Source of the DNA: a virus
IMG/VR virus record: IMGVR_UViG_3300042547_000031
Coordinates: 1 to 32,023 of that record
Direction: 5' to 3' (one strand)
DNA length: 32,023 bases
The notes beneath the pieces are model-generated. The model did no database searches. It saw nothing but the letters and a program-made list of their open reading frames with translations, and was not told the origin of the DNA. The position numbers and the translations under genes are program-made. Of this stretch, positions 3,338 through 32,002 are shown one piece after another; positions within the stretch are counted from its first letter, which is position 1, and each line of letters opens with the position of its first letter.

Positions 3338-5394
3338 CGCTGACCATCCTGTTTAATATCAATCCGTGGTGCACCAAGCTGCCACGTTGTACCCAGCCCA
3401 TCAGAGCCAACCCGCATAATCATCTGTCGTCCACGGATACGGGTATAAATAATGTTGGTGAACTGCTCAATCGTCACTGTAGAAGTACGAGCAACAGCTT
3501 TGGCGGCTTCGGTGTTAAATCCAGACCCGGAACCATTCATACCATAAAGCGTCATAGTGACTTGCGGGCTTTGGCTTGTAGATCCTTGAAATGTCAGATC
3601 CGGCACCATACGCCATACAAACCCAAAGTTCTGCCCATCGTCAATATCAAACTCAGCCGACTCGATGTAGGCTTCAATTGCGGTGGCTGTACCTGTGGCG
3701 TTATCGTCCACCCCGTATTCATGATCAACAACGTTGTAGTTGTACGTAGCTGCTTCAGGGTAGTTGCGTAGTCCCGAGTCAAGCCAAGCCGTGCGCCCCA
3801 TCGTGCCGTAATACCAAATATCTTCTGCGTAGTTGTACACAACGTACTTATCAACTACCGTGGAATTGGTAGAACAGTAAAACCACCAGACTTCGTTAAA
3901 GCCTTCGTTTGTTCCGGCAAAGATCTGATCAAGCTGCGAGACGTTAATGTCGGAAAAAACATACCGCCTTAGATCACAGCGAAGCGTCTGCACCCGCCCG
4001 TTATAGGTATAAAACTTATCAACCCCCATCCAATACACCACACCCGAAGCAACAGCCGTAGCGTTTGGCCCGACGATAGATATGTTGTCACCAAGTAACT
4101 GAGATCCCCATACAAACGGAGGGCCGAGGTACTGCAAGGAGTACAACGCCGAATCAGTCCACACCAAAACTTCTTGTCGTGTTTGAAGCTCAGAAATAAT
4201 TTGTGAACCGTGGGATAGGCGCAAACTACCTGCTTGGTTTGTGGGGGCAGGGACAAAATCAGTAACCGACTCTTGATTACCCCAACGGATCAGCATCGGG
4301 TCGAGCACTGCACTACCATAAGCTGTCGTACCAAAGAGTAGAAGAAACCGAGACGTATCCGAAACAATCATGCCATTTTGTTTTGATGGCACATCGACAA
4401 GTTCAGAAACATACACATCCGACCCAGTAGATGCGGCGTTAACCAGCGCCCCAGTAGGAGAAGCCGATATGTTTGCTGTGACCCCATCCACATTTCGCAA
4501 GTAATACGTTGTACCCGCAGTGACCCCAGAAGGCATTGTGCCTGTAGTGTTGAATTTAACCGCAGTGCCCTCGGACAATAGAACCGAAGCAAACGTAACA
4601 ACAGTGGGGGAAGCTGACGTAAAACTTACATTCCCACCAATCGAATTAAGAGCAACGCCACGAGTAGTAACACCATTGGTCGCATCCCAGTAATAGAGAG
4701 GTCCGCCCCGATACCCAAAAACTAAATCTTCACCCCAGTTCTGGGCATCCCACAACCGCAACCGCTCAGTACCGGCAACACCCGTACCCCAGCCGCCCAT
4801 ACCCCAACCACCAGAACCCCATCCAATAACAGCGCCTTGAATGGCAGGGCCAGCGTCAATCTCATATTTAGCAGTTACTGTACCCCCACCGGTAGCGGTG
4901 CTTGAAGCATTTGATGCGGCTGTGATGGTGTAAGTGTTAGTGCCTGTTACTGTGATCTGGTAGTTGCCGTTAAGCGTTAACCCTCCAACTGCTGAAGCCC
5001 CGCTGAAAGTTACAAAATCTCCGGTAGCACCCCCATGAGAAGCATCGGTTACTGTCACAACGGCTGAACCACTTGTCGTCGTAAAAGGGTTTGTTAGGGT
5101 TGCGGTTTCTCGTATGGGGGTAATGTCATTGTAGATCCCCCCACGCTCAATATAAAACTTAAGATTTGTGCCGACAGCAAGCAAGTTATCAAAGCTGAGC
5201 GTCACCCAATTCCAAAGAAACCGGCACACCCCCTGAAATGTGTATGGGGAGATACGCTGCCACCCACCAATTTTCTCAGGCGTACCCTGACGAAACCGAA
5301 CCTTTTCACTGATATACCAACCGTTTTCATTGGTATACCGAGTATTTTCTTGGTTTGTTCCGGGCTTAAAAAGTATCTTTTTGAGTGGCATCAT
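3334..5394 (-). CDS. Large tail/neck structural protein (packaged-DNA stabilisation-like)
   Basis: A 686-residue protein whose N-terminus (FKPGTNQENTRYTNENGWY, then KVRFRQGTPEKIGGWQRIS) is a hallmark of a family common in aquatic short-tailed phages, often labelled packaged-DNA stabilisation or tail protein. The core is beta-rich with many W/G/Y residues (GWGSGGWGMGGWGTG at about 191-205), suggesting a propeller-like or hub fold. Two stretches, about 100-178 and 253-333, have the look of inserted beta-sandwich or Ig-like modules (threonine, valine and glycine rich, with TAGTTYYL). The C-terminus ends in DIKQDGQR. It sits between the endolysin and the jelly-roll protein, with 4-base overlaps on both sides. 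Likely a virion tail or neck component; the exact assignment is inference. Confidence 0.75.
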   Translation of the reverse strand: MMPLKKILFKPGTNQENTRYTNENGWYISEKVRFRQGTPEKIGGWQRISPYTFQGVCRFLWNWVTLSFDNLLAVGTNLKFYIERGGIYNDITPIRETATLTNPFTTTSGSAVVTVTDASHGGATGDFVTFSGASAVGGLTLNGNYQITVTGTNTYTITAASNASSTATGGGTVTAKYEIDAGPAIQGAVIGWGSGGWGMGGWGTGVAGTERLRLWDAQNWGEDLVFGYRGGPLYYWDATNGVTTRGVALNSIGGNVSFTSASPTVVTFASVLLSEGTAVKFNTTGTMPSGVTAGTTYYLRNVDGVTANISASPTGALVNAASTGSDVYVSELVDVPSKQNGMIVSDTSRFLLLFGTTAYGSAVLDPMLIRWGNQESVTDFVPAPTNQAGSLRLSHGSQIISELQTRQEVLVWTDSALYSLQYLGPPFVWGSQLLGDNISIVGPNATAVASGVVYWMGVDKFYTYNGRVQTLRCDLRRYVFSDINVSQLDQIFAGTNEGFNEVWWFYCSTNSTVVDKYVVYNYAEDIWYYGTMGRTAWLDSGLRNYPEAATYNYNVVDHEYGVDDNATGTATAIEAYIESAEFDIDDGQNFGFVWRMVPDLTFQGSTSQSPQVTMTLYGMNGSGSGFNTEAAKAVARTSTVTIEQFTNIIYTRIRGRQMIMRVGSDGLGTTWQLGAPRIDIKQDGQR

Positions 5395-29460: not shown

Positions 29461-30999
29461 CTAACCTAAGTAATAACCGCGTTTCTGCCCACGGAAGCCT
29501 TTAAAGTATCGAATATCGTCAGGCTCGTCGCTTGGCAATGAAATAAATCCACCCTGCCTGAACCGCAGCAGCGCCTGTGTCATCGTATCCACGTAGTCAT
29601 CATGTTCCCCCACCGGAAATGCAGCGACTTCTTCAACGACTTCCCGAGCCCAGCGTGTGTCAGGCGCCCAGACTTTACCACTGGCAAACATATCTGCCAC
29701 AGCATTAACACGCACGTGCTTATCGTTCCCTCTTGATGGGCTGAACTCCTGTATAGGGACACTCATGCGAAACAATTCTTGAATGAGCGGGGCACCTGCG
29801 GCTTTCTTTTCAATGAGCACAATATCTGGCTCATACTCTTTATACATTTCTATTGCACGTTTTTTTAAATCGGGAAAATTTAATCGTGCTTTAAACGCAT
29901 CAATTAAAATAATGTTAGGCGAACCGCCATCTTCGTCGTTATACCAAACCCCCCATGTTGTACAGGCAGTATAATCCGAAGAGTTTTTAGTTTCATGCGC
30001 CGTATCCCACGACTGAATAATAAATTCACAACGTGGTGGGTCTTCGTTAGGCCACACTTTCCACATATTACGTTGAATAACCGCAGCCGCATCGCTTGTG
30101 GGCTGCTGCATATATTGGGCCTGCCAATATCGCGGGTCCATACCCGCACGTTTTGATTTTAATTGTTCAAGAGGCCACTGCTCAGGCCATAAACTTTTTT
30201 CATTATCTTCATTTTCATTTAATATAGCGGGTAATTCAACAATATCCCACTCATCAGAATCTGGATTTTTGGCTTGATAATCAATTAAACGCCCTGTTAA
30301 ATCAATTAAACTCCAGCGCGTCATAATAACTATTATTGCGCCCCCCGGCATTAAGCGTTGTAGTGGGCCTGTCTGAAACCATGACCATGCCTGATCAAAT
30401 GTCAGGCGTGAATTAGCCTTTATATCCTGTTCAGAATGAGGATCGTCAATAACAAACAGATCAGCACCACGCCCAGCCAGAGCGCCGCCAACGCCAACAG
30501 CATAATATTGACCTCCAGCTCCGGTAGACCATTTTCCGGCAGCTTTTTGGTCTTCTGCGAGGGCTGTTTTTGGAAAAACTTCCTGATATTCATCAGCGTC
30601 CACCAAATTTTTAACTCGTCTACCGAAATCTTCCGATAAAGACGCAGTGTGCGTCCCCATAATAATCTTTTTATCAGGAAACTGTCCTAAAAACCAAGCT
30701 GGAAACAGGTAGCTTGAAAACTCAGACTTGCCCATACGTGGGGCGATATTAATAATGACTCGTTTTTTACGTCCTGCAACTACATCTTCAAATATTTTTG
30801 CCAGTTTTCTATGGTGTGCGCCTTCTTTAAAGCCCGGATATACGTGATGCGCAAATGCTAATAATGAAGTTTTAGATTTTTTGAGTGATTTACGCCTATC
30901 AAACTCATCAAGCAGCGTTAATACCTCCATCTTTTCTTCAGATGGCATCAACGGCAGCACTTTACGCAGTGCTTCTGCTTCGTGATCACTCAGATTCAC
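29461..30999 (-). CDS. terL: Terminase large subunit (packaging ATPase/nuclease)
   Basis: 512 residues. The ATPase has Walker A APRMGKSE (86-93), Walker B LFVIDD (181-186) and a coupling motif VIMTRWS (224-230). The nuclease domain has D332 (QSWDTAHETK), E397 (VLIEKKAAG) and D467/D468/D471 (EHDDYVD), fitting an RNase H-like metal site. It translocates DNA into the procapsid through the portal and cuts the concatemer. It begins at GTG 30999 with GGAG seven bases upstream and overlaps terS by 14 bases. The end (GFRGQKRGYYLG) is close to the portal gene, eight bases away. Confident family assignment. Confidence 0.96.
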   Translation of the reverse strand: MNLSDHEAEALRKVLPLMPSEEKMEVLTLLDEFDRRKSLKKSKTSLLAFAHHVYPGFKEGAHHRKLAKIFEDVVAGRKKRVIINIAPRMGKSEFSSYLFPAWFLGQFPDKKIIMGTHTASLSEDFGRRVKNLVDADEYQEVFPKTALAEDQKAAGKWSTGAGGQYYAVGVGGALAGRGADLFVIDDPHSEQDIKANSRLTFDQAWSWFQTGPLQRLMPGGAIIVIMTRWSLIDLTGRLIDYQAKNPDSDEWDIVELPAILNENEDNEKSLWPEQWPLEQLKSKRAGMDPRYWQAQYMQQPTSDAAAVIQRNMWKVWPNEDPPRCEFIIQSWDTAHETKNSSDYTACTTWGVWYNDEDGGSPNIILIDAFKARLNFPDLKKRAIEMYKEYEPDIVLIEKKAAGAPLIQELFRMSVPIQEFSPSRGNDKHVRVNAVADMFASGKVWAPDTRWAREVVEEVAAFPVGEHDDYVDTMTQALLRFRQGGFISLPSDEPDDIRYFKGFRGQKRGYYLG

Positions 31000-31543
31000 T
31001 AGGCTTCTCCGTCGCAGTTACCTCAATAGCGCCCATATATTTACCAAGCTTAGCTTTAATCTTGGCTTCAATCTCTTCATCCGTTAGCTCAGTTTTCTTA
31101 ACCTCCACGCGTTCCGTAAATAGCGCGACTTCGGTGACTTTACCTAGCATCTCTAGGGCTTTTAACCGATAGCGTGGGTCAGGGTGCTCTGTATCTTCTA
31201 ATATTTTTGCAACCGCGTACCCCCTCATCTGCCGCGCTTGTTCAACAAACGCCCAGTCATACGCCGTTAGCATCCCAACAAGCCGTCGTACTGCTTCTGG
31301 CGTGGTGTTTGCCATTAACTGCTGCTTTACTTTTTCAGCAGGGGCACCAGCAGCCATAGCAGTAAACGCTAGTTGCGCATTCTTCTTGCTAGCGTTCTCT
31401 TCAACCTCTTCATCAGACGCTGCGCCAATCGACTCTAAAAAGTCAGCCGTATTAACTTGTGCGTTTAATAACTGTTGAGGCGTTGCTTTGTCCACCGGGA
31501 CTGCCGATGGAGGGTCATCATAAATAATTAGATGTTCAAACAT
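30986..31543 (-). CDS. terS: Terminase small subunit
   Basis: 185 residues. The helical pattern AQMRGYAVAKILEDTEHPDPRYRLKALEMLGKVTEVALFTERVEVKK is the core seen in terminase small subunits of aquatic short-tailed phages, where an L-x-x-L-G-K-x-x-x-V-x-L-F-T-E motif is conserved. The N-terminal region is acidic with an Ala-rich stretch, the C-terminus charged. It should recognise the packaging site and load TerL, which overlaps it by 14 bases. The start at 31543 has no good Shine-Dalgarno (a pyrimidine-rich stretch precedes it); a real start downstream cannot be excluded. It is the first gene of the leftward late operon. Confidence 0.82.
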   Translation of the reverse strand: MFEHLIIYDDPPSAVPVDKATPQQLLNAQVNTADFLESIGAASDEEVEENASKKNAQLAFTAMAAGAPAEKVKQQLMANTTPEAVRRLVGMLTAYDWAFVEQARQMRGYAVAKILEDTEHPDPRYRLKALEMLGKVTEVALFTERVEVKKTELTDEEIEAKIKAKLGKYMGAIEVTATEKPSESE

Positions 31544-31629
31544 ACTGAGGGAAAGGGGGCACCTCGGTTTAAGTTAGCGTAGAGTAATGTTTTATTGACG
31601 TTTGTGCAATGGGTGCGTATATTAACGGT
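31544..31629. other. Gap between terS and the plus-strand RNA unit
   Basis: No protein gene. It holds the plus-strand promoter at 31595-31623 and a pyrimidine-rich leader just before terS on the minus strand. No convincing minus-strand sigma70 promoter for the late operon is visible here or further right, so terS may rely on a different promoter type or on read-through from outside the window. Confidence 0.6.
31595..31623 (+). promoter_or_regulatory. Sigma70-type promoter, plus strand
   Basis: -35 TTGACG (31595-31600), a 17-base spacer, and -10 TATATT (31618-31623): five of six matches in each hexamer with ideal spacing. The predicted start is G31630, at the foot of a hairpin. All protein genes in the window run the other way. 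Confidence 0.65.
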
Positions 31630-31642
31630 GTAGCTTGTCCAT
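31622..31642 (-). CDS. Possible six-residue leader peptide (MDKLHR)
   Basis: On the minus strand, a perfect AAGGAG (31655-31650) lies seven bases before ATG 31642, which opens a six-codon frame MDKLHR ending at TAA. The start codon sits in the loop of the GTAGCT/AGCTAC hairpin. It may be a leader peptide of the late transcript, or coincidence, since the same bases form the plus-strand small RNA. No minus-strand promoter is visible. Low confidence. Confidence 0.25.
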   Translation of the reverse strand: MDKLHR

Positions 31643-31709
31643 AGCTACTCTCCTTGTTGTATGGGTTATGACGACCTTCCCTTATCCCGGCGCAATGCCG
31701 GGATTTTTT
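31630..31709 (+). ncRNA. Candidate ~80-nucleotide small RNA (unit 1)
   Basis: A plus-strand unit bounded by a sigma70-type promoter and an intrinsic terminator. The RNA would begin with a perfect 6-base stem GTAGCT/AGCTAC (31630-31635 and 31643-31648), then a CTCTCCTTG linker with anti-Shine-Dalgarno character, a weaker GTTGT/ACGAC hairpin (31656-31660 with 31671-31675), then the terminator stem. It is antisense to the DNA upstream of terS, including a perfect AAGGAG on the opposite strand. Boundaries are predicted from sequence; expression is unproven. It might instead be a leader of rightward transcription that is attenuated. Confidence 0.5.
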
Positions 31710-31710
31710 G
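31685..31710 (+). terminator. Intrinsic terminator of plus-strand unit 1
   Basis: Plus strand: TCCCGGC (31685-31691), loop GCAAT, GCCGGGA (31697-31703), then six T. The T-tract is on the plus strand only, so it stops rightward transcription. Confidence 0.85.
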
Positions 31711-31930
31711 TGTACGTATGTCAAATATTTGACATTATGCAGGGGAATTTTTGTAGATTTTTTGTGGGGTTGGAAGCGGAGTAAAACTTTGTAAAAAATA
31801 TGTGGTGTTGGAGACAAATAGTGTCCATAACCACGCCGCTACATTGCTCACATCTGGGGGGATACGGGTACAGTGGGGTTGCAAAACGGCAAAAGTGCTT
31901 AACCCCCTGGGAGTTCTCAGAAACACGTTA
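31711..31930. other. Non-coding stretch between the two plus-strand units
   Basis: No credible gene; ORFs here lack ribosome binding sites and known protein patterns. It contains the 18-base palindrome (31718-31735), an AT-rich stretch, and an imperfect GGGGTT (31875-31880) / AACCCC (31901-31906) inverted repeat that could be a further regulatory structure. Confidence 0.6.
31718..31735. promoter_or_regulatory. 18-base perfect palindrome, candidate operator
   Basis: ATGTCAAATATTTGACAT is its own reverse complement over 18 bases, the size and symmetry of a dimeric repressor or regulator site. Each arm contains TTGACA, which could serve as a -35 element on either strand, though no matching -10 is clear. 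It lies eight bases after the unit 1 T-tract. Confidence 0.6.
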
Positions 31931-31939
31931 TGGTATAAT
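31931..31939 (+). promoter_or_regulatory. Extended -10 promoter, plus strand
   Basis: TGGTATAAT: a perfect TATAAT (31934-31939) with the upstream TGn of an extended -10 promoter, which can work without a -35; none is seen. The predicted start is A31946. Confidence 0.55.
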
Positions 31940-31945
31940 ATAGTC

Positions 31946-32002
31946 ATGGTTGGGAGTTGCTCAGCCATACGTTGCCACGCCGTTCGCGTGGCTTTTTGTT
32001 TT
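31946..32002 (+). ncRNA. Candidate ~57-nucleotide small RNA (unit 2)
   Basis: A plus-strand unit that starts at the foot of a 9-pair hairpin (31946-31954 with 31960-31968, two G-U pairs, loop AGUUG), continues with a short linker and ends in a strong terminator stem. Layout matches unit 1: promoter, hairpin at the first base, linker, terminator, with the start seven bases after the -10. Expression is unproven; it could also be the attenuated leader of a rightward operon outside the window. Confidence 0.45.

Follow-up and report, generated by a model that had tools for sequence, protein, structure and literature searches.

A promoter, a hairpin and a terminator stand close together in front of the terminase genes of this virus, and the question raised by the locus is whether they make up an independent RNA gene and which mRNAs such an RNA would address. 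In the window (the whole stretch of DNA analysed, a virus record of 32,023 nucleotides, or 32 kb), the identified genes all lie on the minus strand and are late genes, with terS and terL first. The terminase small subunit gene terS (30986..31543, minus strand; PHROG 51, E 7e-4) is the first gene of the late operon and divergent from the RNA unit, and the TerL gene (29461-30999, minus strand; phrog_38, E 3e-103) adjoins it. The original prediction had seen here a stand-alone small regulatory RNA made against the late operon. As a class of element, such an RNA is strongly supported by the conservation and coevolution described below; the candidate targets turned out to be others.

Architecture of the predicted sRNA unit

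The unit (31595-31709, plus strand) begins with a predicted promoter, in which the -35 hexamer TTGACG (31595..31600) and the -10 hexamer TATATT (31618..31623) are separated by a spacer of 17 nt, as seen in a motif scan and in the alignment of relatives. TTGAC is invariant in the close family and a TTG-type -35 is found in most distant relatives. Folding and alignment place a 6-bp stem-loop (SL1), GUAGCU(UGUCCAU)AGCUAC (31630..31648), with its first base 7 nt past the -10, and this base, at about 31630, is the predicted transcript start. The SL1 loop carries UCCAU, the complement of an AUGGA start. It is followed by the single-stranded linker UCUCCUUG (31649..31656), whose seed is complementary to AAGGAGA and in which TCTCCT is invariant in the close family, by an optional stem-loop 2 (31654..31674) that is supported by folding and varies among relatives, and by an intrinsic terminator detected by folding, scan and alignment, ATCCCGGC-GCAAU-GCCGGGAT plus T6 (31684..31709, stem 31684-31704), with a T-run on the plus-strand side only. 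Promoter, hairpin and terminator are thus where the original prediction had put them, and its remark that they leave no room for a protein agrees with what is predicted from sequence: the unit with its own promoter and intrinsic terminator contains no coding sequence and no ORF conserved among relatives.

The predicted RNA of ~80 nt folds better than 199/200 dinucleotide shuffles (z -2.8), and across relatives its predicted length is mostly 67-103 nt, shorter values being misassigned starts. Its units end in a T6-8 tail, a U-rich tail together with an internal U/A-rich site being a feature of Hfq-type sRNAs. No Rfam 15 family matches the window at gathering score. In a 3-kb stretch, five matches to the promoter pattern were found against 4.8 expected, the sRNA promoter being the best of them, together with seven terminator-like sites against 2.9 expected. 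Since the sRNA promoter is not above chance by pattern count, conservation is the real evidence for the unit.

Conservation in uncultured relatives

Viral contigs were scanned with TerL and with a hairpin-linker pattern, and ~30 of them (33 by the pattern scan) share the unit at a constant position, nearly all with the complete series of promoter, hairpin, UCUCC and terminator. The conserved blocks in the close-family alignment are TTGAC, the -10, GTAGC...TCCAT...GCTAC, TCTCCT and the terminator stem with its T-run, and the stretch from linker to terminator differs in length and sequence among members. The SL1 loop changes in length among relatives with the GTAGC/GCTAC stem kept, and an extra U on the 5' side of SL1 is matched by an A on the 3' side in most such sequences.

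Conservation of promoter and terminator in homologous phages, by which the original prediction would stand or fall, extends well beyond the close family. Uncultured relatives whose TerL is 68-100% identical provided 61 distinct units with this architecture, placed upstream of terS, and all 61 contain CTCC(T/C) because CTCC plus a T-run was the motif used to extract them. Relatives with TerL identity of 68-76% have promoter, 5' hairpin, single-stranded CTCC(T/C) and T6-8 terminator at the corresponding position, TTG-type -35 elements and strong T6-8 terminators being typical of distant units. TCTCC lies shortly 5' of a T6+ run at this position in 25/25 long records. Four loci (L055-L058) have a unit that escaped the extraction pattern, and some others stop too early to judge.

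Stem sequences are unrelated between clades, and still the CTCC core of the linker is unpaired in the predicted folds, with a mean unpaired probability of 0.90 over the 61 units, in line with the earlier claim of a linker complementary to Shine-Dalgarno sequences (UCUCCUU with AAGGAGA). Over 21 linker clusters, SL1 segments are on average more stably folded than their dinucleotide shuffles (mean z -2.0). Covariation, which had been proposed as a check, was found for one stem of clade h: compensatory changes in the equivalent of stem-loop 2 amount to 10 double-changed cells against 3.3 in shuffles (0/500), whereas SL1 of this clade is invariant and, having no variation, is silent on covariation.

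Outside this group, the hairpin-linker pattern gave 13 matches in bacterial genomes, judged to be chance because promoter and terminator are absent from them, and a DNA search of INPHARED gave no match. In the cultured relative DSL-LC04 (TerL ~50%) no unit was apparent by eye in two intergenic regions, and in the cultured relatives HTVC027P, HTVC023P and Pag-Yong1 (TerL ~50%) the gene order around terL differs. The phages carrying the sRNA unit are described here as a family of uncultured aquatic phages.

Linker matches to early ribosome-binding sites

The unit had been described as lying opposite all genes, which holds inside the window and fails beyond it: in longer relatives a long plus-strand operon begins just past the right edge, and the description is an effect of that edge. 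This operon encodes DNA polymerase A, an SNF2 helicase and many small proteins, with a probable nuclease recognized by eye, and given its polymerase and helicase genes it was taken as the early/replication operon. The sRNA is co-directional with it and located at the head of the late operon. The early operon of the window itself lies beyond the end of the record, and the early-gene comparisons rest on relatives; for L001, which is 99.8% identical to the window, ~3.7 kb of early operon is available, with a moderate energy of -16.3 kcal/mol at the best site.

The complement of linker plus SL1 reads AAGGAG-AGTAGCT-ATGGACA, and a pattern search found AAGGAGAGTA..ATGG at several genes of the plus-strand operon of relatives. 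Start regions with GGAGAGT occur at 25/167 right-operon genes of the close family, against 1/26 late genes there and 0/191 genes in four distant relatives, orthologous genes being counted more than once. The sequences AAGGAGAGTAATCATGG and AAGGAGAAGCAAATG are also early ribosome-binding sites (RBSs) of relatives. The linker of G014 has AAGGAGAAGCAAATG as its complement, to which four early RBSs, GGAGAAGCAAATG, are identical except for the outermost base, so that linker and early sites of this type, as compared here, are near-exact antisense and among the best cases. The linker complement of G019/G025, AGGGAGAAAGCAA, is found beside early genes with AGGAGAAAGCAATG, and the G002/G006-type antisense GGAGAGTAGC is the RBS of a DUF2201 (VWA-like) gene and, in G006, of a DUF3150 gene too, both sites ranking among the best sRNA matches in G006. 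CAT precedes CTCC by 5-8 nt in 8/21 linker clusters against 1.5 expected; five of these eight come from one clade, which leaves four independent lineages. Pairing at late gene 25084, suggested by the original prediction, finds little to build on, the site 5' of this gene, AAGGAGTAATTCC, having only the generic AAGGAG in common with the sRNA target.

Coevolution of linker and early start regions

A first energy ranking with the full 5' part of the sRNA was swamped by long nonspecific duplexes, and register-based and swap tests were therefore used instead. In the swap test, duplex energies of the linker of each group were obtained for its own and for foreign start regions, row and column means were subtracted, and the pairing of linkers to groups was permuted. 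Gene starts were picked by a GGAG rule, which places weak-SD genes outside the test. Looser clustering thresholds left 1-3 linker groups and no usable test, because CTCC is common to all linkers.

Early start regions prefer their own linker when 11 groups are compared (p=2e-4). With 14 linker clusters, 0/200,000 permutations reach the observed value, and the same result (0/200,000) was obtained for 11 deep clades, where 11/11 favour their own linker and the mean energy at early sites is -15.3 kcal/mol for own against -13.6 kcal/mol for foreign pairs. Restricting the early start regions to the bases 5' of the AUG does not abolish the signal (p=5e-5, the lowest value that this run could give). 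In contrast, late start regions show no own-linker preference (p=0.92 for 11 groups, 0.83 for 14 clusters and 0.93 for 11 clades; 0.79-0.99 over all tests). The comparison of linker and start regions by duplex energy, another check proposed beforehand, thus came out in favour of the early genes of relatives and against late genes, and the late operon is not supported as target.

Control segments (the neighbouring 22 nt, the 5' part of SL1, and reversed or reverse-complement linkers) were not significant (p 0.06-0.36), whereas one set of flank-shuffled linkers still gave p=0.027, which indicates a small contribution of base composition. In a ranking against flank-shuffled linkers, groups a1, a2, b, d and g place their own linker within the top 2%, c, d26 and h within the top 10-13%, and f within the top 19%; for clades e and i the own linker was no better than the shuffled ones (ranks 179/200 and 96/200), suggesting that extended pairing is possibly dispensable in some clades. 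Extended pairing is strong in some clades and weak in others. As far as these comparisons reach, seed and early targets change together in evolution.

Proposed mechanism and alternative explanations

The reading that we favour, with a probability of about 0.7, is that of a trans-acting phage sRNA which prevents ribosomes from initiating on several early-operon mRNAs of the same phage. A sigma70-type promoter and a terminator of its own would give an RNA of ~80 nt here, in which the UCUCCUU toehold, exposed 3' of SL1, would capture the Shine-Dalgarno sequence of phage mRNAs. Pairing would then spread into the spacer and, in several clades, into the AUG by way of the SL1 loop or 3' arm, which carries the complement of the RBS spacer and often of the AUG. 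The targets would be several genes of the divergent early operon sharing a phage-specific extended RBS consensus (e.g. AAGGAGAGTA..ATGG in the close family), and the pairing would block 30S binding and lower the translation of many early genes together, plausibly as phage genome copies rise and the late phase begins. Transcription of the sRNA, repression rather than activation, and the early-to-late timing are steps that we infer. The function is a well-supported prediction from sequence, whereas the architecture, its conservation, the predicted exposure of the toehold and the coevolution of linker and early RBSs are shown by the comparisons. A single conserved RNA gene seems to reach many early genes by way of an RBS that they share and that coevolves with it; if this is true, RNA-based shut-off of early genes with a simple toehold design would operate across an uncultured aquatic phage group. 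In the broader form of this idea, one sRNA would control much of the early operon at translation, and the phage-private extended RBS, serving as an 'address', would drift together with the sRNA, giving each phage of a widespread uncultured lineage its own translational regulon; for this broader form we see even odds.

A real sRNA could instead have host mRNAs as main targets in a general anti-SD shut-off, with the likeness to early RBSs being secondary. UCUCCUU could pair with many Shine-Dalgarno sequences, and in clades e and i the extended match to the phage's early genes does not exceed that of shuffled linkers; nevertheless, host targeting does not predict that the linkers of 11 clades prefer their own early genes and show no such preference for late ones, and we consider it unlikely as the main function, although host-directed anti-SD activity may coexist with phage targeting. 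Because unit and early operon point the same way and a second promoter-hairpin(-terminator) unit follows 300 nt further on, it could also be supposed that the divergent early operon is transcribed from the unit as from an attenuated promoter placed upstream, where an antiterminator or regulator permits read-through, similarly to the pR'-tR' segment of lambda. This leaves the single-stranded UCUCC and the coevolution of linker and early RBSs unexplained, and a conserved extended -10 promoter that belongs to the early operon itself lies farther downstream, which makes such an arrangement quite unlikely.

Two further explanations turn to the minus strand or to the locus itself. The complement of linker plus SL1 given above could be read as the RBS and start of a leader peptide before terS, the plus-strand features being incidental; in clades a, d, g and k it has the form of a textbook RBS followed by ATG, and a similar hairpin is predicted for minus-strand RNA. 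This candidate was rejected as very unlikely, given an ORF of 1-68 codons (6 here, one, ATG-TAA, in L061, and 8, 13, 34, 38 and 68 in relatives), frame shifts caused by changes of SL1 loop length 3' of the ATG that are not multiples of three, and the absence of any start codon in many clades. In addition, the units consistently have their T-runs and promoter on the plus strand, and stems of the L007 type (GTAGC/GCTGC) contain a G-U pair that is preserved in plus-strand RNA only. Highly improbable, finally, is that the position is what matters, the unit being a cis-antisense of the terS leader or a terminase DNA element that resembles early RBSs as a side effect of an inverted early-RBS copy. 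The unit does stand directly before terS, and a late mRNA starting to its right would hold the full sRNA complement, but a cis-antisense partner needs neither a conserved UCUCC nor coevolution with early genes kilobases away, and stem sequences are replaced freely from clade to clade. With regard to an RNA of the OOP/sar type, the unit is found upstream of terS on the opposite strand and late starts lack own-specific pairing; a cis role on late mRNA would depend on where the late promoter lies.

Comparison with known regulatory RNAs

Known phage sRNAs mostly act on one neighbouring gene or on a host mRNA. P22 sar and sas and lambda OOP are short, independently terminated phage RNAs that pair with phage mRNA and control development, and bacterial multi-target sRNAs of the RsaE/RoxS type have single-stranded, C-rich anti-SD seeds that occlude several Shine-Dalgarno sequences. 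The trans-acting sRNA proposed here resembles sar/sas and OOP in being, by prediction, short, phage-encoded and provided with its own terminator, and unlike these cis-encoded RNAs, each opposite one target, it has many predicted targets, kilobases away and on the same strand. It shares with RsaE/RoxS a C/U-rich exposed seed and differs from them in being phage-encoded, with phage early mRNAs as predicted targets.

A 2025 review of phage sRNAs (PMC12197685), in its available portions, distinguishes cis-antisense RNAs from trans RNAs acting on host or phage targets, covers OOP and sas, and presents VpdS (phage VP882) and PreS (lambda) as trans-acting independent phage sRNAs, both Hfq-linked, VpdS as a regulator of host and phage RNA levels and PreS as one of host dnaN. 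Like these two, the sRNA described here is a phage-encoded, independent unit with predicted trans action; unlike them, as portrayed in those portions, its linker coevolves with the shared RBS consensus of its own early operon. The main text of the HTVC027P transcriptome paper (PMC12753301) makes no mention of sRNA, antisense or intergenic RNA. In the literature searched, whose coverage fell short of preprints and most subscription papers, no sRNA directed at the shared RBS of a phage's own early genes was found, and within that reach the wiring is provisionally new.

Other features around the unit

Just 3' of the terminator there is a perfect 16-bp palindrome, TGTCAAATATTTGACA (31719..31734, plus strand; expected 0.01 by chance), which is kept in relatives, in many of them as TGTCAAA..TTTGACA beside T-rich stretches, and which is a possible operator of a phage or host regulator. 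G-rich conserved blocks also occur between the sRNA unit and the early operon. The second unit (31933..31992, plus strand), identified by scan and alignment, consists of an extended -10 TGGTATAAT, a hairpin AUGGUUGGGAGUUGCUCAGCCAU and a terminator at 31974-31992 (GCCACGC-stem plus T5); members of the close family conserve it to a high degree, and analogous units, with the terminator present or absent, precede the first early gene in distant relatives. It is probably the leader of the divergent early operon, with an attenuator. In one relative (L005, from G001), the alignment reveals a tandem repeat of the unit GTTTAGGCGTTGCGTG at ~5120-5230, where it separates the sRNA unit from the early leader.

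In clade h (L020, L027, L032 etc.) an inverted repeat lies inside the spacer of the sRNA promoter (GCGCCC-GAGTT-GGGCGC in L020), which suggests that this promoter may be regulated. The -10 region of the sRNA promoter is nearly palindromic in distant relatives (e.g. TGTACA, GTATAC), the start of terS lies near the divergent sRNA promoter (31544-31600 in the window, and similarly in relatives), and in several clades terS lacks a Shine-Dalgarno sequence at the usual distance; a bidirectional promoter and a terS mRNA with a short leader are possible on this basis. In the right operon of G002/G003/G006, a conserved early cluster at ~+4 to +8.5 kb from the sRNA contains genes for a possible AAA ATPase, a DUF3150 protein and a DUF2201 VWA-like/metallopeptidase-like protein.
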